Source of the DNA: Glaciecola nitratireducens FR1064 | Lineage (GTDB): Bacteria; Pseudomonadota; Gammaproteobacteria; Enterobacterales; Alteromonadaceae | Reading direction: 5' to 3' | Assembly: GCF_000226565.1 (NCBI RefSeq) | Contig: NC_016041.1 | Coordinates: 1,798,001-1,862,000, forward strand | Length of the DNA stretch: 64,000 nucleotides | Shown: positions 24,042 through 38,121 of the stretch, one piece after another | How positions within the stretch are numbered: the stretch's first letter is position 1 | Layout: each line of letters opens with the position of its first letter | Translations under genes and position numbers: made by a program | The notes under the pieces: model-generated | The model's database searches: none | Seen by the model: only the letters and a program-made list of their open reading frames with translations | Told to the model about the DNA's origin: nothing

Positions 24042-25268
24042 ATGTGGAAGAGCAAAGATCGTTCAATAAATGAAACACTCAATTTATTGGAATTAGCTAT
24101 CGATGGGGCGAAAGAGGGCATCACTATTTCAGATATGAAAGATCCCCAAAGGCCTTTGATTTTTGTTAACGAGGGATTCGAATATACCACCGGTTATCAG
24201 CATCAGGAAGTGTTAGGAAAAAACTGCCGTTTTTTACAAGGCCCTCACAAAGACCCTGATAATGATCTCCCATTGAGTGAGTTGAAACAAGCACTTGACC
24301 AAGCGAAACCCTGCACAGTTCTGCTAAAAAACTATCGTAAAAGTGGTGAGCTTTTTTGGAATAGATTGTCACTGACGCCTATTTTCGACGATGACAAAAG
24401 TTTAACGCATTTTGTTGGCGTGCAAACAGATGTCACAGCAGAGATTTTAGCGAAAGAAGCTGCTGCTATAAGTTATAAAAAATTAAAAGAAAATTTTGCG
24501 TTAATGGAACAAGATTTAGCACACGCTAGTTTTGTTCAACAATCGATATTACCGACTAAATTTCCAGACAGTAAATCGCTCAAATTTTATGCGAAATTTG
24601 AACCGATGACCCATATTGGAGGTGACTTTTACGACGTATTCCAGATAAACCCCGATCTCTTTGGTGTAATGATTGCTGATGTCACAGGGCATGGCGCCTC
24701 AGCTGCGTTACTAACGCTGATGGCTTCTCATGTTTTTAAAGAAGCAGCAAAAAATAGTTCCAACCCTGAAGATGTCTTACGTAAAACTAATCAAGCACTA
24801 TACAAAAAAATTCCGCCAGGAAAATTCATAACAATGTTTTATGGTGTTGTTGATGAGGTCGGTAAAACGTTCAGCTATTGTCAGGCTGGCCATCCTTGCG
24901 CTTATTTAATTAGGGGAGACGACCAGACGGTGCACGAACTAACGACTAACTGTTCACTGCTAGGCGTATTTGACGATTCGATGGCAAGGTTTGAGCAAAA
25001 AACAATATCACTCGCGCAGGGCGATAAAGTAGTGCTCTATACAGATGCCTTAGTTGAGGCGAAGGCGCAAGATAAAACGTACCTTGGCAGTGAACAATTG
25101 AACAGCTTGCTATCTGAATCTGCGAGTTGCCCCATTGACCAGTTATTAGAAAAACTGTATCGCAGTGGTTTATTATTCATTGAAGGTGCTGAGAGTCTCG
25201 CGGACAATCCGATTTCTGTAAGTTACCAAGATGATATGACTTTGTTGGGCTTTGAAGTGATTGCATAG
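24042..25268 (+). CDS. LOV-PP2C: blue-light sensor fused to a SpoIIE/RsbU-type phosphatase
   Basis: 408 residues. A LOV domain (about 12-135) contains GKNCRFLQG with the photoactive Cys62, plus FVNEGFEYTTGY and NYRKSGELFWN, all typical of flavin-binding LOV domains. A short helical linker (about 140-165) leads to a PP2C/SpoIIE phosphatase (about 185-405) with metal motifs GGDFYDVF, IADVTGHG and the late YQDDMTLL. Such phosphatases dephosphorylate STAS-domain switch proteins. A STAS gene follows 250 bp downstream at the head of the chemotaxis cluster, and another STAS gene lies at its end. No RsbW-type kinase domain is in this protein. Confidence 0.9.
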   Translation: MWKSKDRSINETLNLLELAIDGAKEGITISDMKDPQRPLIFVNEGFEYTTGYQHQEVLGKNCRFLQGPHKDPDNDLPLSELKQALDQAKPCTVLLKNYRKSGELFWNRLSLTPIFDDDKSLTHFVGVQTDVTAEILAKEAAAISYKKLKENFALMEQDLAHASFVQQSILPTKFPDSKSLKFYAKFEPMTHIGGDFYDVFQINPDLFGVMIADVTGHGASAALLTLMASHVFKEAAKNSSNPEDVLRKTNQALYKKIPPGKFITMFYGVVDEVGKTFSYCQAGHPCAYLIRGDDQTVHELTTNCSLLGVFDDSMARFEQKTISLAQGDKVVLYTDALVEAKAQDKTYLGSEQLNSLLSESASCPIDQLLEKLYRSGLLFIEGAESLADNPISVSYQDDMTLLGFEVIA

Positions 25269-25284
25269 CTTAGCTTCAGTCTCG

Positions 25285-25309
25285 TAAATAGGAGAAAGTT
25301 TACCGATAA
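25285..25309 (+). promoter_or_regulatory. Possible sigma-28 promoter before the chemotaxis cluster
   Basis: TAAA (25285-25288) and ACCGATAA (25302-25309), seven of eight matches to the sigma-28 -10 box. The spacing is 13 rather than 15 bp, so this is weak. It would give a leader of about 200 nt before the STAS gene at 25520. Confidence 0.3.
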
Positions 25310-25519
25310 ACCTCGGGCTTGTTTAATCTATAGTTATTTATTTATTTGATTTGAATCACGCTTTTTATACATAGGTATAAAGTTAGGTAAATAAAACCTA
25401 AACCTTTTCAGCAATACTCCGATACATTCTTTAGAGTCCCAATGTATGCAATAAGATACTGCTTTCTACAAAAATTTCAGTGGCTTATCGCTTAGCATTA
25501 TATATGTAAATGAGGATGT

Positions 25520-25792
25520 ATGAAGCCAAATCCGATATTAAAATTGCCAGCCGAATTAACGATTTCTGAAGTATCTGAATTCAAGTCAGAGTTTATTGCG
25601 TACATTGACGACAATGAAGAAATCATTCTTGATGGTAGTGAAGTTAATCGAATTGATACGGTGGGCATACAGCTGCTGCTCAGCGCATTGATGTATGTTT
25701 CAAAGCAAAAAAAGTCTTATATCTGGCACACGCCATCATCAATTATTTATCAGAGTGTCAAACAGCTAGGTATGAAAGGCTTCTCGTTTTAG
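25520..25792 (+). CDS. STAS-domain protein (anti-anti-sigma-factor type)
   Basis: 90 residues, a single STAS fold with a GAGGA ribosome binding site. The usual phospho-Ser position in the DSSGL motif reads DTVGI, with Thr47 as the possible phospho-acceptor. Small STAS proteins often precede cheY-cheA in this type of cluster. It may be a target of the LOV-PP2C phosphatase upstream, of the HATPase domain encoded at 36421, or both. Which partner it binds is not visible from sequence. Confidence 0.82.
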   Translation: MKPNPILKLPAELTISEVSEFKSEFIAYIDDNEEIILDGSEVNRIDTVGIQLLLSALMYVSKQKKSYIWHTPSSIIYQSVKQLGMKGFSF

Positions 25793-25876
25793 TGAACGCA
25801 AAATATGCTAACTCAAAGCACGGCGGCTTTAATGATTCTTTAATTTTATTTTAATTTGTAAAAAGGGAACAGACCA

Positions 25877-26239
25877 ATGACCAAAATTTTGGTTGTAGAT
25901 GACTCTAACTCAATCCGAGACATGGTGAGTTTTACTCTAAAAAGTGCAGGCTTTGAAACTGCAGAGGCGAAAGATGGTCTTGAGGGCTTAACAAAAGCAA
26001 AATCATCTAGCTTTGATTTAGTTATTTCAGACGTAAACATGCCTAATATGGATGGCATTACTTTGTGTCAGGAGCTACGCAAATTACCCAGCTTCAAATT
26101 CACTCCAATTCTCATGCTAACGACTGAAAGCTCGACCGAAATGAAGATGCGTGGCAAGGCTGCTGGCGCAACGGGATGGTTAGTAAAGCCATTTAACCCA
26201 GAGAAATTGCTGGCGACTATAAAACGTGTTGTGAGGTAA
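25877..26239 (+). CDS. cheY: CheY-type single-domain response regulator
   Basis: 120 residues, a receiver domain only: acidic pair in VVDDSN, phospho-acceptor Asp in ISDVNMPNMDG (about 53), Thr in MLTTESS, and Lys in VKPFNPEKL. The AAGGGAA ribosome binding site is good. It lies four bases before cheA and is the likely phosphorylation partner of this CheA. Whether it acts on the flagellar motor, or as a phosphate sink for a non-motor pathway as proposed for Che2-type clusters, cannot be told. Confidence 0.92.
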   Translation: MTKILVVDDSNSIRDMVSFTLKSAGFETAEAKDGLEGLTKAKSSSFDLVISDVNMPNMDGITLCQELRKLPSFKFTPILMLTTESSTEMKMRGKAAGATGWLVKPFNPEKLLATIKRVVR

Positions 26240-26243
26240 GGCT

Positions 26244-28328
26244 ATGAGTGTCGATCTGTCTCAATTTGTTCCTAGTTTTCTTGAAGAAAGCTTTGAAGGA
26301 CTTGAATTAATGGAGTCAAGCTTGCTGAATTTAGACGCAGGCGACAATGAAACCATTCATTCTATCTTTCGAGCTGCGCATTCTATAAAAGGTGGGGCCG
26401 GCACTTTTGGATTTAATAATGTTACAGAGTTTACCCATTTAGTCGAAACTTTGCTAGATGAGATCAGAGACGGTCGACGAGAGATTACGCCTAAAGATAC
26501 CGAATTATTGCTGGTTGCCGTTGACTGTATGCGTCTATTGATTGAAGCAGCCAGAGATGACGCTGACTATGATGAAAACAAAGTAAGTGAAACTACCCGC
26601 CTTTTAGAACTGACCTTAGAAATGAAAACGCCATCTAGCGATAGTGAAATGGTCGATATTGAGACGGATACGAAAAAGCCAGCAGGAAAAATTTGGCACA
26701 TCACCTTTATTCCAGAACATCATTTGGTGCAAACCGGCAATGACCCTTTATTGTTATTTAATGCGTTGGCAGATCTCGGTGAATTGACCTTAAAAGCAAA
26801 AACTGACCTGATTCCACCGATAGCAGAAATGGATGCGACAGAGCTGTATATTAGTTGGGAGTTATCATTAATTTCAGAGGCTAGTGAAGCAGACATTCGA
26901 GAAGTTTTTGAATGGGTAGAGGATGAATGCACATTAGAAATTGTAAGTACTGAGTTATCGCCTGAACCTGTTGAACCGAACGCCAGTTCTGATATTGCAC
27001 CAACATCCGACTCCGAATTATCAATTAGCCCAATTGCTTCAGCCATTGAAAAACCAGCAAATGCTGTTCAAGCCGCCGAGAAGTCAGATAAGAATAAAAC
27101 AAAATCAAAACAAGATGTAGGCTCTATTCGGGTCGGGGTTGATAAAGTAGATTCGCTCATTAATTTAATGGGAGAGCTTGTTATTACCCAATCAATGTTG
27201 TCAGAACTAGGCAACGATTTTGAAATATCTAAGCTTGAAAAACTAAAGAGTGGCTTAGACCAATTACTGCAAAACACCAAAGAACTGCAAGAAAGTGTGA
27301 TGAAAATTCGCATGTTGCCTATTAGTTTCGCCTTTAACCGCTTTCCTCGTTTAGTGCATGATTTATCAATTAAAACGGGTAAAGAGATGAACTTGGTAAT
27401 AAGAGGTGAGCAAACAGAACTTGATAAAACCGTCATGGAGCAAATTGGTGACCCCTTAGTGCACCTAGTCAGAAATGCGGTTGACCATGGTATTGAATCT
27501 TCAGATATTCGCGTAGCAAACGGTAAACCTAAGTCAGGCACTATTACATTAGATGCTTATCATCAAGGCGGAAACATCATCATTGAAATTAGTGATGATG
27601 GTGGTGGTATTAATCGAGAAGCCGTTTTGAGCAAAGCCATTGAAAAAGGCTTGGTAGATAGCAATGCCACACTAAGCGATAGCCAAGTATTTGATTTACT
27701 GTTTGAGCCAGGCTTTTCAACGGCAAAAGAAATAAGTGATATTTCTGGACGCGGCGTTGGCATGGACGTGGTCAAAAGAAATATTCAATCGCTAGGGGGA
27801 AGAATTCAAGTTGAGTCGGAGCCCGGCAAAGGCAGTAAGTTTAAAGTTAACTTACCGTTAACGCTAGCCATATTAGATGGACAACTAGTCCGTGTTGGTA
27901 CCGAAGTATATATTATTCCGCTCATCACTATTGTTGAATCGTTGCAGGCTAAAGCCGAGTTTATTAATAAAGTTTCTGGGGATATGACCCTTTACCGATT
28001 GCGGGAAGACAATGTGCCCGTTATCCCAATATACCAATTGTTCGATTTACCCGCCGATACTAAAGACGTCAATAACGCACTATTAGTTGTGGTCGAGGCT
28101 GATGGTCAAAAAGTTGGTTTGATGGTTGATGATTTATTGGCTCAGCAACAGGTTGTTATAAAAAGCTTGAAGGATAATTATCAACAAGTTGAGGGGATTT
28201 CCGGAGCCACTATTTTAGGTGATGGGTCGGTTGCCATGATCATTGATGTCCCAGGCATGATAGAAATGGCGATAGAAAGAGCACAAGAAAAGCAAAACGA
28301 ACATACTCTTGATGGAGCATTGGTTTAA
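26244..28328 (+). CDS. cheA: Chemotaxis histidine kinase CheA
   Basis: 694 residues with the standard order. P1/HPt has His46 in RAAHSIKGGAGTFG, a P2-like region spans about 155-240, and a low-complexity linker (about 240-290) follows. P3 dimerisation starts near 295 (VDSLINLMGELV). The P4 ATPase contains HLVRNAVDHGIE, DDGGGI and GRGVGMDVV, and P5 (CheW-like) runs from about 550. All catalytic motifs are intact. Its stop codon shares one base with the start of the first cheW, so the two are translationally coupled. Confidence 0.96.
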   Translation: MSVDLSQFVPSFLEESFEGLELMESSLLNLDAGDNETIHSIFRAAHSIKGGAGTFGFNNVTEFTHLVETLLDEIRDGRREITPKDTELLLVAVDCMRLLIEAARDDADYDENKVSETTRLLELTLEMKTPSSDSEMVDIETDTKKPAGKIWHITFIPEHHLVQTGNDPLLLFNALADLGELTLKAKTDLIPPIAEMDATELYISWELSLISEASEADIREVFEWVEDECTLEIVSTELSPEPVEPNASSDIAPTSDSELSISPIASAIEKPANAVQAAEKSDKNKTKSKQDVGSIRVGVDKVDSLINLMGELVITQSMLSELGNDFEISKLEKLKSGLDQLLQNTKELQESVMKIRMLPISFAFNRFPRLVHDLSIKTGKEMNLVIRGEQTELDKTVMEQIGDPLVHLVRNAVDHGIESSDIRVANGKPKSGTITLDAYHQGGNIIIEISDDGGGINREAVLSKAIEKGLVDSNATLSDSQVFDLLFEPGFSTAKEISDISGRGVGMDVVKRNIQSLGGRIQVESEPGKGSKFKVNLPLTLAILDGQLVRVGTEVYIIPLITIVESLQAKAEFINKVSGDMTLYRLREDNVPVIPIYQLFDLPADTKDVNNALLVVVEADGQKVGLMVDDLLAQQQVVIKSLKDNYQQVEGISGATILGDGSVAMIIDVPGMIEMAIERAQEKQNEHTLDGALV

Positions 28329-28852
28329 TGGATATACAAGCGTTGGCCAAAGATATTCCCGCGGAAGGAGAATATTCGTTAGAGGGAATTGACTTTATTA
28401 CGAGCGGTAAGCAATACCTAACATTCTTGTTAGGAGATGAGCAGTACGCCGTTGATATTTTATGTGTGGAAGAAATAAGAAGTTGGGAGCAACCGACAGT
28501 TATTCCCAATGCGCCGAAATATGTCAAGGGTGTTATTAATATGCGCGGCATTATTGTGCCGATTATTGACTTACGTTTAAAGTTTAAAGTTTGCGATGCA
28601 ATCTACAATGAATTCACTGTAGTCATTGTATTGACAGTGGAACTTGATGAGCACACTAGAACAATTGGTTTTGTGGTTGACGCTGTATCTGATGTGCTGA
28701 ATGCAGAAGATAATGAGATTAAAAAATCACCTTATTTTGGTGGCTGTGTTCCCCAAGCTTACATAGATGGCTTGATAAATGTAGGTACAAAAGTAGTTAC
28801 TTTGTTGAACGTCGAAACATTGCAGCTCATTGAAAAACACAAAGTAGATTAG
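28328..28852 (+). CDS. cheW: CheW adaptor protein (first copy)
   Basis: 174 residues with a CheW fold at about 30-170: YLTFLLGDEQYAVDILCVEEI, VKGVINMRGIIVPIIDLR and the closing INVGTKVVTLLNVE. Unlike the second copy it has an N-terminal extension of about 25 residues. CheW couples receptors to CheA. Two adjacent, clearly different CheW proteins may let the same kinase serve two receptor types, such as the globin receptor and the membrane-bound MCP-like protein. That division of labour is inference. Confidence 0.93.
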   Translation: MDIQALAKDIPAEGEYSLEGIDFITSGKQYLTFLLGDEQYAVDILCVEEIRSWEQPTVIPNAPKYVKGVINMRGIIVPIIDLRLKFKVCDAIYNEFTVVIVLTVELDEHTRTIGFVVDAVSDVLNAEDNEIKKSPYFGGCVPQAYIDGLINVGTKVVTLLNVETLQLIEKHKVD

Positions 28853-28863
28853 GTGAATTAGAC

Positions 28864-29355
28864 ATGTCTGAATTAGAGCAAGAGTATCTTACCTTTATGC
28901 TGCAAGGCGAAGAATATGGCGTCGACATTTTATGTGTGCAAGAAATAAGGGTATGCAGTCAAGTCACAGAATTGCCTAATAAACCTAACTATCTAAAAGG
29001 CGTTATCAATCTGCGAGGTGTGATTATTCCAATCATCGATTTACGTCTGCGTTTTGGCCAAAGTTCATTAGATTATAACGAAAATACAGTCACTATTATT
29101 TTACGCACTCAAGAGAAAATAAAACCCATGGTTGTTGGGATTATTGTTGATGCAGTCTCTGAAGTTTATAAATTTTCTACAAATGCAATTCGGAAAGCGC
29201 CATCGTTTGGTAACAAAATTGATAGCTGTTTCCTAAAAGGTATCGCTAACATTGAAGAAAAACTGATTATTTTGCTCGATACACAAACCTTATTGAATGA
29301 GGATGAGTTATTTGTCACCGAGCCGAGGCCACTTGAAAAAAATGTATCAGAATAA
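28864..29355 (+). CDS. cheW: CheW adaptor protein (second copy)
   Basis: 163 residues: YLTFMLQGEEYGVDILCVQEI, LKGVINLRGVIIPIIDLR and ANIEEKLIILLDTQ mark a complete CheW fold without the N-terminal extension of the first copy. It lies 11 bp after the first cheW and 54 bp before the soluble receptor gene. The two copies share their core motifs but differ across most of the length, so the duplication is old. Confidence 0.93.
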   Translation: MSELEQEYLTFMLQGEEYGVDILCVQEIRVCSQVTELPNKPNYLKGVINLRGVIIPIIDLRLRFGQSSLDYNENTVTIILRTQEKIKPMVVGIIVDAVSEVYKFSTNAIRKAPSFGNKIDSCFLKGIANIEEKLIILLDTQTLLNEDELFVTEPRPLEKNVSE

Positions 29356-29409
29356 CAGTAGCAGCGAGATGAACATTCAGCTTACCGCAAACAAGATAGG
29401 AATACGGCG

Positions 29410-32214
29410 ATGACAATAAAACAGAGTATTGTAGTTCAAAAAAGTTGGCAAAAACTTAAGCCAATCGCGCCTCAAGCAGCGAAAATCTTTTATGAAACAC
29501 TATTTGAAATGGACCCATCGCTTAAACCTATGTTCAAAGGCGATATGGTTGAGCAAGGTAACAAGCTGATGTCGATGCTTGATGCTGCAATAAAATTACT
29601 TGATGACCCAGATAAACTGATTCCAGCAGTGCAAAAGCTAGGGGAACGCCATGTGAGCTATGGTGTTAAACCTGAACACTACAGCACTGTTGGAGCCGCA
29701 TTGCTAAAAACTGTTGAAACCGGTTTAGGTGATGAATATACAACAACAGTAAAAAGAGCGTGGACAGCGGTTTATAAAACATTGGCAGACACTATGATTG
29801 TTGCAGCCGATGCAGCGACAGCACCCGCGAAAAAAACAGAATTAGACAACAAAGGTAATAAAGAAATCATGGATACTAAAAACACTAACAATGACTTAGC
29901 CGTGCGCCTTCAAGGGGCTTTGGATCAATCCGCAACACCAATTATGATGGTAGACCGTGACTTCATTATTACCTATGTGAACGCTGCTACTTTGAAGTTG
30001 CTGAAGAGTAATGAGGAAACTTTTGTAAAAGTTTACCCAGGCTTTAGTGCTGACAAAGAGAAAGTATTAGGCGCCTGCATTGATATGTTCCACAAAAATC
30101 CAGCACATCAACGAAAGCTTCTTGATGATGTCAATAATTTACCATGGAGCACCGATATAAATGTTGCGCACCTAACGTTCTCTCTTAATGTCACGGCAAT
30201 ATTAGATGCATCAGGCAACTACATAGGCAATTCTCTTGAGTGGCAAAATGTTACCGAAACCCGTATGCAAGAAAATAAAGCGGTGCAGCTGCAAGGAGCT
30301 TTAGATCAATCGGCAACACCAATCATGATGGTAGACCGTGATTTTATTATCACCTATGTCAATGCCGCTAGTTTATCTCTTCTCCAAAACAATGAAGCTA
30401 CATTTGCAAAGGTGTTTCCTGGCTTTAGTGCAAATAAAGAGAAAGTACTAGGTGCCTGCATTGATATGTTTCATAAAAATCCGGCACATCAACGCAAGCT
30501 TCTTGATGATGTCAATAATTTACCATGGAGCACCGATATAAAAGTTGCGCATTTAACATTTTCACTAAATGTAAGTGCAATATTAGACGCCTCAGGCAAC
30601 TACATAGGTAACTCGCTTGAGTGGCAAGATGTAACGGATGCGCGCACAAAAGCAACTGAAGTTGGGCGTTTGTCTTCCGCAGTAGAGGGTATGACGACTA
30701 ACCTTATGATGGCAGATACAGACGGCAATATCGTATATTGTAATCCGGCTGTGATTAAAATGTTGGCGCGCAGAGAGACAGAGTTAAGGTCAGTTTTACC
30801 TGCTTTTTCGGTAGCCACTATAGTTGGTAGCAATTTCGATAGTTTTCATAAAGATCCATCTCATCAGCGCAACATACTTGGGAACGTCGCCAACTTACCT
30901 TTTACTAGTGAAATTAAGGTTGCTAGCTTAACTTTCCAGTTAATTGCAATTGCACTCAAAGACGAAAACCAAACTCATGTTGGGACCGCAGTCCAGTGGT
31001 TAGATTTGACTGAGGAGAAAGACGCTCAAGCTCAAGTTGAAGGCTTAATTACTGCTGCGATCAGCGGTGAGTTAGACCGTCGTATCGAAACATCACAGTA
31101 CAGCGGCTTTATGTTACAACTGGGTAATAATATAAATGAGTTGATGGAAGCCATTGTTGAACCGATTAACGACGCCATTAATATTGCTCAAGCATTAGCT
31201 GATGGTGATTTAACGCAGAGTATGGACAGTAAATACGGTGGGCAGTTCTTGCTTCTGGCCGAAGCAATGAATGGTTCTATCGAAAATCTTGGCAACATGG
31301 TTGAAGAAATTCGCAACGCATCAACAAATGTGTTTGATGCAGCAAGAGAGATTGCTGAAGGTAACAATGAATTAAGCCAGCGCACTGAAACACAAGCATC
31401 AAGTCTTGAAGAAACTGCTTCAGCGATGGAGGAGCTTACGAGTACAGTGCAGCAGAATGCCGAAAACACGACTGAAGCTAGTAAACTTTCTTCTGGTGTA
31501 ATGGAGAAAGCAACTAATGGCGGTGAGGTTGTTAAAAATGCTATCGAAGCAATGAGTGATATTAATAAGTCGAGCAAGAAAATTGCAGATATTATCAGTG
31601 TTATCGATGAAATTGCATTCCAAACTAATTTGTTAGCGCTTAACGCAGCGGTAGAAGCAGCAAGAGCGGGTGAGCAAGGAAGAGGCTTTGCGGTTGTTGC
31701 AGCAGAAGTTCGCAACTTAGCGCAACGTTCTGCAGGTGCAGCGAAAGAAATCAAAGGACTCATAAATGACAGCGTTGAAGCCGTCGGTCAAGGGACTAAA
31801 CTGGTTGACGCTACAGGCCAAACTTTTACTGAACTTGTCAGTGCCATTGCCGAAGTAGGCAAAATGCTACAAGACATTGATAGCGCAGGTAAAGAGCAGT
31901 CGGCAGGTATCGGTGAAGTGAGTGAAGCCGTTAGTCAGATGGATGAAATGACGCAGCAAAATGCCGCGTTAGTTGAGGAAGCCTCAGCATCAAGCAAATC
32001 AATGGAAGAGCAAGCACAAGGCTTATTGGAACAAATTAGCTTCTTCAAAAATGGAGAGCAAGAGACTCAAGCGGTTAATAGCCGAGCAGCATCAAGACAA
32101 GCGCCAGCAAGATCAGCACCAGTAAGAAAAGCGTCAAACACAGCAGCGCCAGCGCCACGTAGTCAACCAGCACGTCGTGCAACAAAACCGGATGACGAGT
32201 GGAAAGAGTTCTAG
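29410..32214 (+). CDS. Soluble globin-PAS3-MCP chemoreceptor (Aer2-like position)
   Basis: 934 residues, no membrane segment. Residues 1 to about 135 form a haemoglobin-type globin: CD-corner Phe42 (KPMFKGD), distal-side Gln49 and proximal His81 (GERHVSYGV), followed by [14 protein letters not shown]. Then come three PAS-like units of 127 residues starting at 167, 294 and 421, the first two nearly identical. A HAMP-like segment (about 575-640) leads to the MCP signalling domain with tip [21 protein letters not shown] Pro/Ala-rich tail ends in EWKEF, matching the xWxxF docking pentapeptide for CheR/CheB. It holds the same place as aer2/mcpB in P. aeruginosa Che2 and probably senses oxygen, NO or redox. 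Confidence 0.92.
29908..30669 (+). repeat. Tandem duplication of a 381-bp PAS-coding unit
   Basis: Two copies, 29908-30288 and 30289-30669, encode nearly identical 127-residue units: shared blocks include [19 protein letters not shown] and [18 protein letters not shown]. They also remain similar in DNA, with long identical stretches. A third, older unit (30670 to about 31050) keeps the same length but is much more divergent. Confidence 0.88.
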
Positions 32215-32260
32215 TGAATGCTGAAATATTTGTCTTTAATTATTTGGAAGGTTGAATGCA

Positions 32261-33142
32261 ATGGCTGATGAGCGTCACGAAGATCATAGTTTATCGAGCA
32301 AGGAATTTAAGTTTGTTTGTGAATATGTTCATACTAAAACAGGAATATTACTCAATGAAAGTAAGCGAGAGATGGTTTATCGCCGTTTCTCGCGCATTAT
32401 CAGAGAGCGCAAACTAAATAGCTTTAGTGACTACTGCCATTTATTGCAGACAAAACCCGATGAGGAAGAGAATTATTTTATTAATGCGATCACAACCAAT
32501 CTGACCAGTTTTTTTAGAGAAAAGCATCATTTTGATTATTTACAAGCGCATGAAATACCAAAAATACTTTCTCAACAAAAAAAATCACGAGAGCAAAAGA
32601 AGTCTATCAGGATCTGGTCTTCAGCATGCTCTACTGGCGAGGAACCATATAGCATCGCGGTTACATTGCTAGAGTCTATGGAAGCTCAGTTGCAAGAATG
32701 GGATGTTAAGATTCTTGCAACTGATATTGATAGCAACGTACTAGCTAAAGCTGCTGAAGGTATTTATGACCAAAGTCGCATTGATGATTTGCCAAAGGAG
32801 ATACAACAACGGTATTTTATTAAAGGAACGGGCAGCAATAGTAAGAATATTAAGGTGAGCAAAAAGTTACGAGATTTAATCACGTTTAAACAGTTAAATT
32901 TGTTACATGATTGGCCAATGACTGGGCTTTTTGACGTGATTTTTTGCCGCAATGTGATTATTTACTTCGACAAACCGACGCAACAAGAGTTATTTGCGAG
33001 GTATTACGAATACATAAAACCAGGTGGCTTATTAATATTAGGGCACAGCGAGAACTTAGGCGCCTATCAAAAATACTTTTCTAACGGTGGACGGACTATT
33101 TTTAGAAAGCCTGAAGTTTGTGACCAAGTTGCGGCAGGTTAA
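32261..33142 (+). CDS. cheR: Chemotaxis protein methyltransferase CheR
   Basis: 293 residues from the ATG at 32261. The GGAAGG ribosome binding site ends 10 nt before it, whereas an in-frame TTG at 32252 is too close to that site. The N-terminal all-helical domain (about 10-75) is followed by the SAM-binding methyltransferase domain with WSSACSTGEEPYS, ATDIDSNVL and DVIFCRNVIIYF. It methylates receptor glutamates. The neighbouring receptor ends in a CheR-type docking pentapeptide, which fits a dedicated pair. Confidence 0.94.
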   Translation: MADERHEDHSLSSKEFKFVCEYVHTKTGILLNESKREMVYRRFSRIIRERKLNSFSDYCHLLQTKPDEEENYFINAITTNLTSFFREKHHFDYLQAHEIPKILSQQKKSREQKKSIRIWSSACSTGEEPYSIAVTLLESMEAQLQEWDVKILATDIDSNVLAKAAEGIYDQSRIDDLPKEIQQRYFIKGTGSNSKNIKVSKKLRDLITFKQLNLLHDWPMTGLFDVIFCRNVIIYFDKPTQQELFARYYEYIKPGGLLILGHSENLGAYQKYFSNGGRTIFRKPEVCDQVAAG

Positions 33143-33147
33143 TCACT

Positions 33148-33807
33148 GTGGAACGGAATAAAAGTATAGAAGTGCAGCGATGCATCTCTCGATGCCTGCC
33201 GGAATTCAGTCATGTCAATCATTATTGGGATAGAAGTAGGCAGGTTGTCGTCGCCAAAATTTTACCTGGTGAGTTTTATATGACACGAGACAACGTCACA
33301 ATCGCTACGACTCTGGGTTCTTGCATCTCGGCGTGTATCTGGGATAAAGAGGCAAATATAGGTGGTATGAATCACTTTATGTTGCCCTTAACGGATAAAA
33401 AGGCACATGAAGTGAATTGGGGTAAACGAGGCATTGCCTCAGATGCCACGCGGTACGGTAATTTTGCTATGGAACACCTGATTAACGTGATATTAAAAAA
33501 TGGTGGAAAGCGAGAGAATTTATTGGCAAAAGTCTTTGGCGGCGGAAAAGTGTTAAACCAAATGACGGATGTAGGAAAGCGCAATATTGATTTTGCGATG
33601 CATTATTTACAAATGGAAAACATCACAATTGATACTACTGATGTAGGTGATTTGTACCCAAGGAAAGTGATTTTTGAGCCAACGGGAGGAAGAGCTTTCG
33701 TTAAAAAACTATACAATTTACAGAATGATACCATTGCACAGAGAGAGAAGGATTATTCTAAAAATATTGAAAAAGATAACGTTGATGGCGAAGTTGAATT
33801 ATTTTAA
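33148..33807 (+). CDS. cheD: Chemoreceptor glutamine deamidase CheD
   Basis: 219 residues from a GTG start 5 bp after cheR. The catalytic Cys lies in TTLGSCISACIWD (about 54) and the catalytic His in GGMNHFMLP (about 73). CheD deamidates receptor glutamines and can be regulated by CheC/CheX in other systems, but neither is visible here. An extra C-terminal tail of about 35 charged residues ends in GEVELF, nearly the same as the end (GDIELF) of the MCP-like protein encoded at 34904. Confidence 0.94.
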   Translation: MERNKSIEVQRCISRCLPEFSHVNHYWDRSRQVVVAKILPGEFYMTRDNVTIATTLGSCISACIWDKEANIGGMNHFMLPLTDKKAHEVNWGKRGIASDATRYGNFAMEHLINVILKNGGKRENLLAKVFGGGKVLNQMTDVGKRNIDFAMHYLQMENITIDTTDVGDLYPRKVIFEPTGGRAFVKKLYNLQNDTIAQREKDYSKNIEKDNVDGEVELF

Positions 33808-33831
33808 CGTGGCAAAAGGGTGGGATAGAAT

Positions 33832-34917
33832 TTGAGAAAAATAACCGTATTAGTTGTCGACGATTCATCGGTAATACGTAACATCGTTAAAGACACCCTA
33901 AAGGATGAGCTCGACATTGAAGTAGTCGGTGAAGCTGAAGATCCCATTATTGCGCGCGACTTAATTAAAAAACTTAATCCAGACGTTCTGACGCTTGACG
34001 TTGAAATGCCAAATATGGACGGGATCACGTTTCTAAAAAACTTAATGCGATTAAGGCCAATGCCGGTAATAATGCTATCGACGCTAACGACTAAAGGTGC
34101 CGATATCACTTTGGAGGCTTTAGAAATAGGGGCTGTCGACTTCATTGCAAAACCCAGCGTGGCAGAGTTACTCGCGACTAAAAATAGTTTTAAACAAACC
34201 TTGGTACGAAAAATCAAGCAAGGGGTAACTATTGAGCAAAGAAATTTCAAGCTCTCCAATGCGCTAGCCGGTAAAACCGAAAATCAAGTTTTGCGCTTTA
34301 ACGGTGTAAAAAGAGCGGATCATTTGATCGCGATTGGAGCCTCTACAGGAGGGACGGAAGCAATCAAAAAAGTACTGATAAATTTACCCGAAAACTCTCC
34401 TCCTATTGTCATCACTCAGCATATTCCTAAATCCTTTAGTGGTCGTTTTGCTGAGCGCCTTGATAGCTGTTGTAAAATAACGGTTTTTGAGGCTCAACAT
34501 GGACAAAAAATCAAGACGGGCCACGCTTATATTGCGCCCGGAGATATGCATTTAAAAGTAGTGAAAAGAGGCGCGGGACTTTTTTGTACTTTAGAAGATT
34601 CAGCTGAAGTTAGTCGGCATAAGCCGTCAGTAGACGTTTTATTCGATTCACTCATTCCGTTTGCCGACAATGTTCAGGCGGTTTTATTAACCGGGATGGG
34701 AAGAGATGGGGCACAAGGTATGTTGAATTTGAAAGAGTCAGGAGCTCGGACGTTAATTCAAGATAAGAGCAGTAGTTTGATATGGGGTATGCCAGGCAAA
34801 GCTTATGCGCTTAACGCACACTGCGAAGAGCTTCCTTTAGATAATATAGCAAACAGCCTAGTTAACTTTGCATCATTAAATAAAGCGGAGATGAAGAAGA
34901 AAAATGATGAATATTGA
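33832..34917 (+). CDS. cheB: Chemotaxis methylesterase CheB
   Basis: 361 residues from a TTG start with a GGGTGGGA ribosome binding site. The receiver domain (about 1-125) has VVDDSS, Asp in LTLDVEMPNMDG and Lys in IAKPS. The methylesterase domain (about 165-350) has the catalytic Ser in GASTGGTEA, His in ITQHIPKSF and Asp in LLTGMGRDGAQG. It removes receptor methyl groups when phosphorylated by CheA. Its 3' end overlaps the next MCP-like gene by 14 bp. Confidence 0.95.
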   Translation: MRKITVLVVDDSSVIRNIVKDTLKDELDIEVVGEAEDPIIARDLIKKLNPDVLTLDVEMPNMDGITFLKNLMRLRPMPVIMLSTLTTKGADITLEALEIGAVDFIAKPSVAELLATKNSFKQTLVRKIKQGVTIEQRNFKLSNALAGKTENQVLRFNGVKRADHLIAIGASTGGTEAIKKVLINLPENSPPIVITQHIPKSFSGRFAERLDSCCKITVFEAQHGQKIKTGHAYIAPGDMHLKVVKRGAGLFCTLEDSAEVSRHKPSVDVLFDSLIPFADNVQAVLLTGMGRDGAQGMLNLKESGARTLIQDKSSSLIWGMPGKAYALNAHCEELPLDNIANSLVNFASLNKAEMKKKNDEY

Positions 34918-36085
34918 TAAAATTATTATGTTTCGGACAAGCTTTGGCTTAATTATCTTGTTGTTAGTGAATGCAATTTTATTTGACGTTGCTTTTCTGA
35001 CCATTTTAATTTCCCTTGCTCTGCTCGCGCTATTATTTTTGCAGCATAAGCAAACATCTGATAACGCGAACCAGATAAAACCTCAGGATAAAGTAAGTCA
35101 TATATCTTCAATGGTACCCATCATTCAGGATTTACAGGCGTTCTACGAACACGAAGTTCAAATAATAGATAATGAAATCGATCGCACGAGTGATTTGGTC
35201 GGTGATGCTGTTTTAGGCATTTCTGACTGTTTTAAAAACTTGCAGCAACTCAGTGAAGATCAACAAGTGATGATTTCAGAATTAATAGCGCAAAGTCAAA
35301 GTATTGGTGATGGTAAAGGCACTACGCTGGCTGATTTTGTTCAAGAATCGAATAGAACCTTAGACAACTTTGTGAGTGTCATTGTGAATACGAGTAAGCA
35401 AAGTCTTCAAACGATGGCGTTTACTGACCAAATGGTGAAACAGTTTGATAGTGTGTTTGCTTTGCTAGAACAAGTAGAAAATATTGCATCTCAAACCAAC
35501 CTATTGGCGTTAAATGCAGCGATCGAGGCAGCGAGGGCGGGTGATGCCGGTCGTGGCTTTGCGGTAGTGGCAAATGAAGTAAGATCACTTTCTGTTAATT
35601 CAACGGAATTAAATGAAAATATTCGCAGAGAGATTAACCTAGCAAAAGGTACAATAAGTAAGCTAAGAGAGGCGGTAGAAGAAATTGCCTCTGCTGACAT
35701 GACCCCTATATTGCAAGCGAAAGAGCATATAGGAGTAATGGTAAGACATATTGAAAGTGCGAATGAGGATGGTAAAGCGAAGGTTCAGGAGCTTTCTAGT
35801 CTTTCACCGCAAATAGCCAATGCGGCAGCCTTAGGCATTCGCTCTTTGCAATTTGACGATTTAACTTATCAATCCCTCAATTCGCTAAAAAGTAATACAA
35901 GCAGTATTCGTCAGGTAAACGAAAACCTTGATGAATTTTGCAATCAAAACGAAGCGCACACGCAAGAACAAATTGATAGCTTGAGAAATCGGTGCCAGGA
36001 AATAATAGTCAAAAGCAAAAATGATAGTGAACATCGCAGCGTCAGTCAAGATTCTATGGATGAAGGCGACATTGAGTTATTTTAA
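34904..36085 (+). CDS. Membrane-bound MCP-like protein without a sensor domain
   Basis: 393 residues. Two hydrophobic segments (about 8-26 and 28-46) are separated by only one or two residues, so no periplasmic sensor exists. The rest is coiled coil with the MCP hairpin tip ([22 protein letters not shown]) but a shortened signalling region. The C-terminus ends in GDIELF, like CheD's GEVELF. It may act as a scaffold or as an MCP-derived regulator rather than a ligand receptor. It overlaps cheB by 14 bp and is followed at once by STAS and HsbR-like genes. Confidence 0.85.
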   Translation: MMNIDKIIMFRTSFGLIILLLVNAILFDVAFLTILISLALLALLFLQHKQTSDNANQIKPQDKVSHISSMVPIIQDLQAFYEHEVQIIDNEIDRTSDLVGDAVLGISDCFKNLQQLSEDQQVMISELIAQSQSIGDGKGTTLADFVQESNRTLDNFVSVIVNTSKQSLQTMAFTDQMVKQFDSVFALLEQVENIASQTNLLALNAAIEAARAGDAGRGFAVVANEVRSLSVNSTELNENIRREINLAKGTISKLREAVEEIASADMTPILQAKEHIGVMVRHIESANEDGKAKVQELSSLSPQIANAAALGIRSLQFDDLTYQSLNSLKSNTSSIRQVNENLDEFCNQNEAHTQEQIDSLRNRCQEIIVKSKNDSEHRSVSQDSMDEGDIELF

Positions 36086-36103
36086 TAATGGGGTGGAAAT
36101 AAA

Positions 36104-36412
36104 GTGACAGTTAAAACGCATCTTTCAGACGATAAAAAAGTATTGACGATTGCTATCCATGAAAGCTTTGAATTTTCTCAATACCAAAGCTTCAGAGACG
36201 CCTACAGTGAGGTTGATATTAAGGGCATTAGAATCACCTTAGATTTAAGTAAGGCTGACTACATGGACAGCTCTGCGTTGGGCATGATTCTCTTGTTAAA
36301 AGATCATGCCGATGAGCTTTCAGGTGAGCTCATTATTCTTAAACCCAGTGCGATGGTAAATCAGATATTAGAGATAGCCCAATTTGATAAACTATTGACG
36401 ATTCAGCACTAG
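36104..36412 (+). CDS. STAS-domain protein, HsbA-like anti-sigma-factor antagonist
   Basis: 102 residues from a GTG start with a GGGGTGGA ribosome binding site. The STAS phospho-site motif is complete: YMDSSALGM, so a Ser can be phosphorylated by an RsbW/HsbR-type kinase. Size and neighbourhood match HsbA of P. aeruginosa, which sits beside HsbR and in different phosphorylation states binds the anti-sigma factor FlgM or a diguanylate cyclase. The next gene, 8 bp on, encodes the matching kinase/phosphatase. The HsbA role is by analogy. Confidence 0.83.
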   Translation: MTVKTHLSDDKKVLTIAIHESFEFSQYQSFRDAYSEVDIKGIRITLDLSKADYMDSSALGMILLLKDHADELSGELIILKPSAMVNQILEIAQFDKLLTIQH

Positions 36413-36420
36413 CTAACGAT

Positions 36421-38121
36421 ATGAAACTTGCTCTAGTTGTAGATGATTCAAGAGTACAGTGCCAAATTCTCTGTGCCTTTTTGGCCAGTGAGGGCTACGA
36501 CGTAGTGATTGCTAGTAATGGGGCTCTTGCAATTGAAATGTGTTTGGAACACCAACCTGACTTAATATTAATGAATATTAATATGCCTGTCATGAATGGT
36601 TTTGATGCATGCAGAAAAATTAAGTCATATCACAGTGAAAACGCAATTCCGATTGTTTTTATTACGGCTGACAATTCCGATAAAGCGTTTATCGACAGCG
36701 TTGAGGCAGGCGGCGATGGCATACTGGTTTGGCCATTTTCTTATGACGTCTTCAAAGCAAAGATAAAATCCATTCAGCGTACAAGTGACCTATATCATAG
36801 AGTAAAACTGTTACAAGAAGAGCAGCAAAAAGATGCTGAGATAGCAGAAAACTTAATGTCAGGTGTTATTGAATCGAAAAATTTTGGCACGGATAAAATT
36901 TGTATAGTGAAGCAAGCTGCAGATGTATTTAGTGGCGATATTCATTTAACGGCTCAAGCGCCTAATGGCGATATTAATATATTACTTGGCGATTTCACCG
37001 GGCATGGCTTACGATCTACGATTGGCGCCGTTCCGTTATCTGAAACCTTTAGAGCAATGACAAGTAAAGGTTTCTCATTGTTCGAAATAATATCTCAAGT
37101 GAATCGTCAGTTACATAGTTTGCTGCCAAGAGATTTGTTTTTAGCTGCCACTTTGCTTACCATTTCCAACCATCAAAAGACGGCATATATATTCAATGCT
37201 GGTTTACCGGATGCTTATATTTTTGACGAAAATGCGCAAATAAAACATAAGGTAGCTTCATGTCACCCTCCCTTAGGTATTCTTTCTGAGTTATTGCCTA
37301 ATTCAAAACTCACCATAACCTCAATAAAAAAAGCAGATCGTATCGTGTTAATAAGTGACGGTATTATTGAAGCAAAAAATAGTGCTGGTGAGATGTTTGA
37401 TTATTTTAGATTCGAAAGTGCTGCTGCGGTGGGTGTAAAAAACGGGGATGTGGCAAAAACGGTAATGAAAGAAATAAAATTGTTTTGTGGATCAACTCCT
37501 CAAAGCGATGATATCTCATTAATCGACATTCCATGTGGTGGCTGGGACGACGCTAATATCACACATAGCAGTATCAATAATTCAGTTTTAAATTCTGAGG
37601 ATGAATGTTTATCAGAGCAAAACCCCGCGTGGGAATGGCAATTAAGGTTGTCTGCTGAGCGTTTAAGGCATGTTAACCCGATACCCATTATCATGAATCA
37701 AGTCAATGGAATTGAGGGTGCTGCGCAACAGTGGCAAAGTTTAAATGTAATCTTAACTGAGTTATTTGTTAATGCGCTTGATCATGGGGTTTTGGGCTTA
37801 AGTTCTACATTAAAAAGCGCTGAAGAAGGTTTTGTTTTATATTTTAATGAGCGCGAGAAAAGACTGCGCGACATGAAGAAGGGATTTGTTGACATATCAT
37901 TGAAGTATTTCACTTCAACGGTAGGTGGCAAAATGGTGATTAACGTTAAAGATAGTGGTGAAGGATTTGATGTTGTAGGTGTCACTAAAAGTCTTTCAAT
38001 GACCGACGAAAGCAAACGAGCGTACACTGGAAGAGGTTTACAGCTAGTCAATCAGCTTTGCGACGATGTAACGTTTGAAGAGCAAGGCTCGCGAGTCAAG
38101 GCAATCTATCTTTGCGTGTAA
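36421..38121 (+). CDS. HsbR-like REC-PP2C-HATPase switch protein with a degenerate receiver
   Basis: 566 residues, close to the length of P. aeruginosa HsbR. The receiver (about 1-122) keeps the acidic pair (VVDDS) and Thr82, but the phospho-acceptor is Asn52 (LILMNINMP) and the conserved Lys is Trp104 (LVWPF), so it cannot be phosphorylated in the normal way. A PP2C/SpoIIE phosphatase (about 150-375) has FSGDIH, LLGDFTGHG and SDDISLI. An RsbW-like HATPase (about 415-565) has ELFVNALDHG, DSGEGFD and GRGLQLV. It can be expected both to phosphorylate and to dephosphorylate the STAS protein encoded just upstream. Confidence 0.9.
   Translation: MKLALVVDDSRVQCQILCAFLASEGYDVVIASNGALAIEMCLEHQPDLILMNINMPVMNGFDACRKIKSYHSENAIPIVFITADNSDKAFIDSVEAGGDGILVWPFSYDVFKAKIKSIQRTSDLYHRVKLLQEEQQKDAEIAENLMSGVIESKNFGTDKICIVKQAADVFSGDIHLTAQAPNGDINILLGDFTGHGLRSTIGAVPLSETFRAMTSKGFSLFEIISQVNRQLHSLLPRDLFLAATLLTISNHQKTAYIFNAGLPDAYIFDENAQIKHKVASCHPPLGILSELLPNSKLTITSIKKADRIVLISDGIIEAKNSAGEMFDYFRFESAAAVGVKNGDVAKTVMKEIKLFCGSTPQSDDISLIDIPCGGWDDANITHSSINNSVLNSEDECLSEQNPAWEWQLRLSAERLRHVNPIPIIMNQVNGIEGAAQQWQSLNVILTELFVNALDHGVLGLSSTLKSAEEGFVLYFNEREKRLRDMKKGFVDISLKYFTSTVGGKMVINVKDSGEGFDVVGVTKSLSMTDESKRAYTGRGLQLVNQLCDDVTFEEQGSRVKAIYLCV

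Follow-up and report, generated by a model that had tools for sequence, protein, structure and literature searches.

The window analysed here, a 64,000-nucleotide (nt) stretch of the Glaciecola nitratireducens FR1064 genome (a single contig of 4,134,229 bases), carries a cluster of chemotaxis (che), STAS and phosphatase genes. Judged by its gene content and order, this cluster is a stage-1 F7 chemosensory system with a built-in partner switch of the HsbA/CrsA type. The joined che and STAS/PP2C cluster is already known from published descriptions; the addition is the first gene, LOV-PP2C, which encodes a predicted blue-light sensor joined to a PP2C phosphatase. This light-sensing addition is rare, and its evolutionary setting suggests the replacement of a step driven by CheA. 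The wire from CheA to sigma-S has seemingly been cut and a light-driven phosphatase placed beside it, and light may be partly in charge of the switch in two related marine bacteria. If this is true, the output of the pathway could be probed with a lamp. The E. coli chemotaxis machine is descended from F7 arrays, and the defining paper (PMC7184735) calls the function of F7 in stages 1 and 2 unclear.

The F7 cluster and its light-sensing addition

Thirteen open reading frames (ORFs), all on the + strand, occupy positions 24042 to 38121, and each expected gene name is backed by Pfam. MCP stands for methyl-accepting chemotaxis protein.

24042..25268, +, LOV-PP2C: Pfam PAS_9 and SpoIIE; LOV domain, helical linker and SpoIIE/RsbU-type PP2C with its Asp motifs
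25520..25792, +, STAS1: Pfam STAS_2 scores above STAS; Thr47 at the usual phospho-site (D-T-V-G) in a 108-row alignment
25877..26239, +, cheY of the F7 system: Pfam REC
26244..28328, +, cheA of the F7 system: Pfam Hpt, H-kinase_dim, HATPase_c and CheW, and also genome searches
28328..28852, +, first cheW: Pfam
28864..29355, +, second cheW: Pfam
29410..32214, +, Aer2-type receptor: Pfam N-terminal globin, PAS repeats, HAMP and MCP; C-terminal tether DDEWKEF
32252..33142, +, cheR: Pfam
33148..33807, +, cheD: Pfam; NCBIfam PRK13487 above its cut-off; C-terminal tail DGEVELF
33832..34917, +, cheB: Pfam
34904..36085, +, McpA-like protein: Pfam MCPsignal; hydrophobic N-terminal segment (by hydropathy), MCP tip, FDDLTYQ at residues 317-323, tail EGDIELF
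36104..36412, +, STAS2 of HsbA/CrsA type: Pfam; predicted phospho-site Ser56 (MDSSALG); NCBIfam ant_ant_sig under its cut-off
36421..38121, +, REC-PP2C-HATPase of HsbR/CrsR type: Pfam REC, SpoIIE and HATPase_c_2; receiver with Asn for the phospho-Asp and Trp for the conserved Lys/Arg

The original prediction, made from the sequence without database searches, had named the set cheY-cheA-cheW-cheW-receptor-cheR-cheD-cheB and the STAS and PP2C genes on one strand, and the ORF list and Pfam agree with it. The short gaps or overlaps it described are found from STAS1 onward (-14 to +84 nt), but not between LOV-PP2C and STAS1, which lie 251 nt apart. Because of this distance, and the 720 nt found at the same place in Glaciecola pallidula, LOV-PP2C may be its own transcription unit; a promoter and terminator scan near the gene gave counts under the shuffled means. 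The receptor was correctly recognised, but its N-terminal globin went unnamed. It has the Aer2 layout of PAS, HAMP and MCP with a C-terminal CheR tether, and scores 1057 bits over residues 148-934 against the NCBIfam Aer2 model, under the 1200-bit cut-off.

According to PMC7184735, a stage 1 F7 cluster consists of STAS, cheY, cheA, two cheW-like genes, aer2-like, cheR, cheD, cheB, mcpA-like, STAS and a serine phosphatase. Minus LOV-PP2C, the cluster has this gene content and order throughout, as do cluster III of Vibrio cholerae and Methylomicrobium alcaliphilum in the description given there. The window genome also shares the Aer2-type receptor, the McpA-like protein and a cheZ-bearing che system elsewhere; here, the separate system, a candidate for the F6 system that accompanies stage 1 F7, has its cheZ (by Pfam) at 2.59 Mb, beside cheY- and cheA-like ORFs named by eye. 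Compared with stage 1 F7, the cluster adds LOV-PP2C upstream, its phosphatase receiver is degenerate, and its receptor has an N-terminal globin, a word absent from the main text of PMC7184735. The Che1 cluster of Shewanella, a stage 2 F7 cluster (PMC7184735), carries the CrsR/CrsA pair that controls RpoS availability (PMC9855816). The joining of che genes to STAS and PP2C genes of an HsbR/HsbA-type module had been offered as a novelty, but it is the published stage 1 order, and Che1 is a known case as well. Like CrsR/CrsA of Shewanella oneidensis and HsbR/HsbA of Pseudomonas aeruginosa, the window has a serine-site STAS gene beside a REC-PP2C-HATPase gene, and CrsR/CrsA, like the window pair, lie in an F7 che cluster. 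Unlike CrsR and HsbR, the window protein has a receiver without the phospho-Asp, and the cluster contains a further PP2C that bears a LOV domain.

Relatives were surveyed through CheA. At E up to 1e-120 it matched 110 of the 369 class genomes, and at E up to 1e-150 it matched 86 of the 246 in the family; both counts include the window's own genome. Of the regions then fetched, 60 came from the family (59 of the 85 genomes besides the window's own) and 60 from the class (60 of the remaining 109). The choice favoured strong, full-length CheA matches, and the regions were annotated with hidden Markov models built on the window's own domains. Upstream DNA of at least 1.5 kb is visible in 119 of the 121 loci, with less than 1.5 kb in L056 and L123. 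Of the 120 loci besides the window's, 28 preserve the strict 12-gene order intact, and all 28 belong to the family.

The LOV call is based on the motif GKNCRFLQG, with the adduct Cys, in the PAS domain of LOV-PP2C; it fits the adduct motif GxNCRFLQ, and the flavin-pocket residues and the PP2C motifs are present. Among the best 60 of 129 PDB sequence matches over the LOV stretch are blue-light photoreceptor and phototropin chains. LOV-PP2C lies upstream of STAS1 in two of the 121 loci, the window and G. pallidula, where the LOV-PP2C/STAS1/cheY adjacency is repeated. It is thus linked to the che/STAS cluster in both genomes where it was found. The two proteins are 73% identical, with a crude ratio of nonsynonymous to synonymous substitution (dN/dS) of ~0.07 and dS saturated, and by this comparison the gene is conserved at a level that indicates its maintenance. 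SpoIIE-type effectors are named with prokaryotic LOV/BLUF domains in PMC4844311; the window protein differs from such LOV-SpoIIE photoreceptors in its linkage to an F7 chemosensory cluster. No link of a LOV-PP2C to che or STAS genes was found in a literature search whose reach left most subscription papers outside.

The continued linkage that the original prediction looked for in relatives holds for the STAS genes, which remain beside che, but not for LOV-PP2C, which was not seen in 119 of the 121 loci and is ruled out as a widespread F7 component. Among the matches listed by E-value in a scan of the 246 family genomes, full-length LOV-PP2C matches are confined to the top two, with partial matches in at least 173 genomes. 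A scan of the 369 class genomes returned the window's own LOV-PP2C and one other match, a PAS-rich PP2C whose LOV-like domain is without the Cys motif (by eye) and which has no che genes visible within 4 kb. Scanning contigs with two LOV-PP2C peptide patterns, which reach close relatives only, gave three loci, one of them a true orthologue. A PP2C of any kind precedes cheA in three loci: in two it is LOV-PP2C, placed before STAS1, and in L111, which has a stage-2-like order, it is the REC-PP2C-HATPase. Both SpoIIE-family matches in the window's own genome fall inside the cluster. LOV-PP2C is not the sole PP2C of G. pallidula, which has a second in an unlinked STAS/REC-PP2C-HATPase pair.

Decay of the REC-PP2C-HATPase and a proposed takeover by light

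The last gene had been predicted to encode a REC-PP2C-HATPase, and Pfam finds all three domains in one protein, but it had been missed that the receiver is without its phospho-Asp. In an alignment of 57 REC-PP2C-HATPase or HATPase-only proteins, 53 keep the acceptor Asp; the window and L124 have Asn there, and the remaining two rows show a gap. The receiver Lys/Arg is Trp in the window and also in L077; four rows have Met, Ile or similar, and three have gaps. The window protein is full length, with the checked PP2C and HATPase residues intact and the acidic pocket and Thr of the receiver kept. Its sequence makes it a relative of HsbR/CrsR by descent that would not be expected to share their mode of control. 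Identity to relatives, as z scores, is -2.1 for the receiver, -2.3 for the linker, -2.0 for the HATPase and -1.4 for STAS2, compared with -0.5 for both PP2C and STAS1; the che and mcpA genes lie between -0.2 and 0.5.

The copy in G. pallidula has an in-frame stop in the receiver, and the later receiver and the PP2C are missing; the HATPase frame remains, and its ratio of nonsynonymous to synonymous differences (pN/pS) of 0.30 is the highest among the genes compared. Only a scrap of the gene is left in genome G130, the nearest outside relative, which holds the next closest cluster. A CheA tree of near relatives places the window, G. pallidula and G130 in one group (support 1.0), within which the two LOV-PP2C carriers pair at 0.999. 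To judge from these sequences, the REC-PP2C-HATPase is impaired in all three members of this clade. LOV-PP2C was seen in two of the three, and the remaining 118 annotated loci showed no copy of it.

The STAS proteins differ in how well they qualify as the target of a phosphatase. Every one of the 58 STAS2 rows has a D-S-S-A site, whereas of the 108 STAS1 rows 87 have Thr at the matching position and 21 have Ala, Gly, Ile or Cys. Since its serine is invariant and STAS1 is often without Ser/Thr, STAS2 is the more credible phospho-switch, and STAS1 was not adopted as the default one. Of the two partner-switching modules originally proposed, the one with STAS2 stands and the one with STAS1 is doubtful. 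By residue number and motif, STAS2 Ser56 is presumably the equivalent of HsbA Ser56, and STAS1 presumably resembles MlaB, given its better Pfam STAS_2 score. The HsbA phospho-serine carries the number 56 in PMC6482189 as well. Eight STAS matches occur in the own genome, four of them in short frames: STAS1, STAS2, one MlaB-like protein (by eye) and STAS3. The last is an unlinked DSSALG-type protein (L179, 5171-5452, ~3.871 Mb) that adjoins a DsbD-like gene (by eye) and has no kinase gene beside it; its G. pallidula counterpart adjoins its own REC-PP2C-HATPase.

We propose, with slightly less than even confidence, that LOV-PP2C, gated by light, supplies the dephosphorylation of STAS2 that CheA formerly commanded. 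The globin/PAS receptor would form an oxygen- or gas-sensing array with CheA and CheW, and CheR, CheD and CheB would adapt this array. By analogy with the Shewanella and Pseudomonas homologues, the HATPase domain of the REC-PP2C-HATPase would phosphorylate Ser56 of STAS2, and the state of STAS2 would decide whether the HATPase domain holds sigma-S. HsbR is described as a kinase when unphosphorylated and a phosphatase when phosphorylated (PMC6482189), and a phosphorylated receiver would likewise turn the protein of ordinary members from kinase to phosphatase mode. CheA would presumably have lost command of this step in the window because the receiver has Asn for the phospho-Asp, and the protein may be stuck in kinase mode or may have an ungated phosphatase. 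Blue light would then activate LOV-PP2C, STAS2 would be dephosphorylated and the switch would flip, with light rather than the array driving the dephosphorylation arm. We leave the sign of the STAS2 effect on sigma-S unfixed since PMC6482189 gives opposite models in Shewanella and Pseudomonas for which STAS form frees RpoS. RpoS and FlgM, partners of the regulator and of HsbA in homologous systems, are encoded in the own genome. The single circuit first suggested for the whole cluster survives insofar as the che genes and the partner-switch module are one conserved unit, but the Asn found for Asp in the receiver expected to accept the CheA phosphoryl group weakens its passage from CheA to STAS.

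Several points weigh against the takeover by light. G130 has lost the REC-PP2C-HATPase yet shows no LOV-PP2C, and six other loci (L116, L124, L126, L137, L139 and L077) have receiver or PP2C decay without LOV-PP2C; decay therefore needs no replacement. The two genomes with LOV-PP2C are sisters and amount to one evolutionary event, and the proposed substrate STAS2 is itself somewhat diverged (z -1.4). The window PP2C is still conserved and may act constitutively, the 251-nt gap may permit separate expression of LOV-PP2C, and G. pallidula has its second STAS/REC-PP2C-HATPase pair. STAS1, as nearest neighbour, and STAS3, as a protein of the same DSSALG type, are possible alternative substrates.

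Use of STAS3 would fit a view, which we consider unlikely, of LOV-PP2C as a mere neighbour with its own target and of the receiver decay as unrelated drift. The spacings of 251 and 720 nt, the retention of STAS3 without an adjoining kinase gene and the receiver decay in loci without LOV-PP2C are all as this view would have it. However, both LOV-PP2C genomes carry the gene at the same spot, and a single protein with both PP2C and HATPase_c_2 was found in the own genome, along with one other HATPase_c_2 match above the cut-off, in a 902-aa (amino acid) frame. Slightly less probable still is the picture of the original prediction, in which LOV-PP2C dephosphorylates Thr47 of STAS1, so that the che genes would be accompanied by a further partner switch answering to light only. 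The two genes are immediate neighbours in both genomes, with LOV-PP2C the upstream one, and Thr occupies the site in the window, in G. pallidula and in most other rows, but 21 of the 108 rows have no Ser/Thr there, STAS1-type genes are present in most loci without a visible upstream LOV-PP2C, and no separate kinase gene for STAS1 was seen in the cluster. Finally, an Asn receiver that still regulates without phosphorylation, for example by binding, with both phosphatases simply adding, is compatible with the intact PP2C and HATPase residues, the retained acidic pocket and Thr and the full-length protein, but is improbable with the acceptor Asp and the conserved basic residue both gone and the receiver more diverged than the PP2C.

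A candidate phosphatase for F7 CheY

In stage 1 and 2 genomes, cheZ is confined to F6 systems (PMC7184735), and the sequence of the McpA-like protein makes it a candidate for the missing F7 CheY phosphatase. It is possible, though we lean against it, that this protein acts on F7 CheY as a membrane-bound phosphatase of the CheZ type and that the tail it shares with CheD is a docking peptide for phospho-CheY. If true, this would explain the cheZ-less F7 clusters of stages 1 and 2 and give a role to the conserved McpA C-terminus, which Ortega et al. (PMC7184735) consider important, its role being called unclear. The CheZ structure and its DXXXQ phosphatase motif are described in PMC7750401. In a set of 51 McpA rows, selected for their label, their length and an (E/D)LF end, every row has the F, D and Q of F-x-D-x-x-x-Q, and with them the DxxxQ of CheZ. 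The invariant columns outside the MCP tip in a 22-row McpA alignment are FxDxxxQ, the tail and one Phe. Of the McpA-labelled ORFs, 59 of 61 contain QFxDxxxQ, compared with 4 of 129 other MCP-type ORFs, 3 of 918 kept domain-less ORFs and 6 of 3371 remaining ORFs. CheZ shares F-x-D-x-x-x-Q with the McpA-like protein and, like it, has ~70 residues from the motif to an acidic-hydrophobic C-terminal peptide; the median distance from motif to end is 71 for CheZ, in a set of 13 of 18 fetched loci chosen by the pattern DLTGQ, where the motif is present by construction, 70 for McpA (n=51) and 78.5 for the small proteins described below (n=4). Unlike CheZ, the McpA-like protein also has a hydrophobic segment and an MCP tip in the same chain as the motif.

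The tail common to CheD and the McpA-like protein reads G(D/E)(I/V)(D/E)LF and resembles the FliM peptide. An (E/D)LF end is found in 92 of 103 CheD and 55 of 58 McpA proteins. All 96 loci in which cheY immediately precedes cheA have the strict CheD tail and the six others do not, a contrast confounded by kinship; three of those six have a looser CheD end, (T/A)VELF. The tail is also possibly a CheR tether, as E-W/V-E-X-F is treated in a 2025 Vibrio review, but the Val form prevents CheR binding according to Ortega et al. (PMC7184735), citing Garcia-Fontana.

Six loci without McpA (L114, L122, L142, L156, L161 and L171) encode a small soluble DxxxQ protein of 170-198 aa, which has the tail in four cases, the variant VEFF in L161 and no such end in L156. 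McpA with its tail is present alone in 51 of the 121 loci, the small protein alone in 6 and neither in 63, some of which are clipped by contig ends; McpA or the small protein is thus not universal in F7 loci. The lone joint locus, L073, is a chance motif match in a STAS gene.

Profile and fold comparisons fall short of proving kinship of McpA and CheZ. Pfam CheZ (PF04344) is not among the matches listed at E up to 10 for three McpA-like and four small proteins. Pairwise hhalign placed the C-terminal part of McpA on the catalytic motif of CheZ with E 0.01 and a probability of 4%, and the whole of McpA on the same motif with E 0.045 and 1%; the control, Aer2 against CheZ, gave E 0.36 and was placed elsewhere. 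Kinship by profile is weak on this showing. The McpA structure model matches MCPs, with CheZ not among the fold matches listed, and the small-protein model is a long helical hairpin, with CheZ not among the best 50 fold matches listed. A PDB sequence search with the small protein gave nothing useful. A literature search on McpA, CheD and CheZ, again with most subscription papers outside it, found no report of McpA as a phosphatase or of the tail-docking idea.

In some loci the cluster is followed on its 3' side by a response regulator, 385-409 aa long and with an uncharacterised C-terminal part; a related acidic ...LF end is present in all 22 listed (including L053, L078 and L079).

Variation among the surveyed loci

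The receptor begins with a globin in 61 of the 106 loci where a receptor was seen, and the number of PAS repeats in Aer2-type receptors varies strongly across L052-L171. Genome G130 holds two F7-like clusters (L053 and L067); no genome in the set of Ortega et al. is described as having more than one (PMC7184735). L114 and, by size, also L110, L122, L124 and L129 have an insert between the receptor and cheR, made up of a longer STAS1 and an ATPase of ~250 aa that is ParA-like, judged by eye in L112 and L114.

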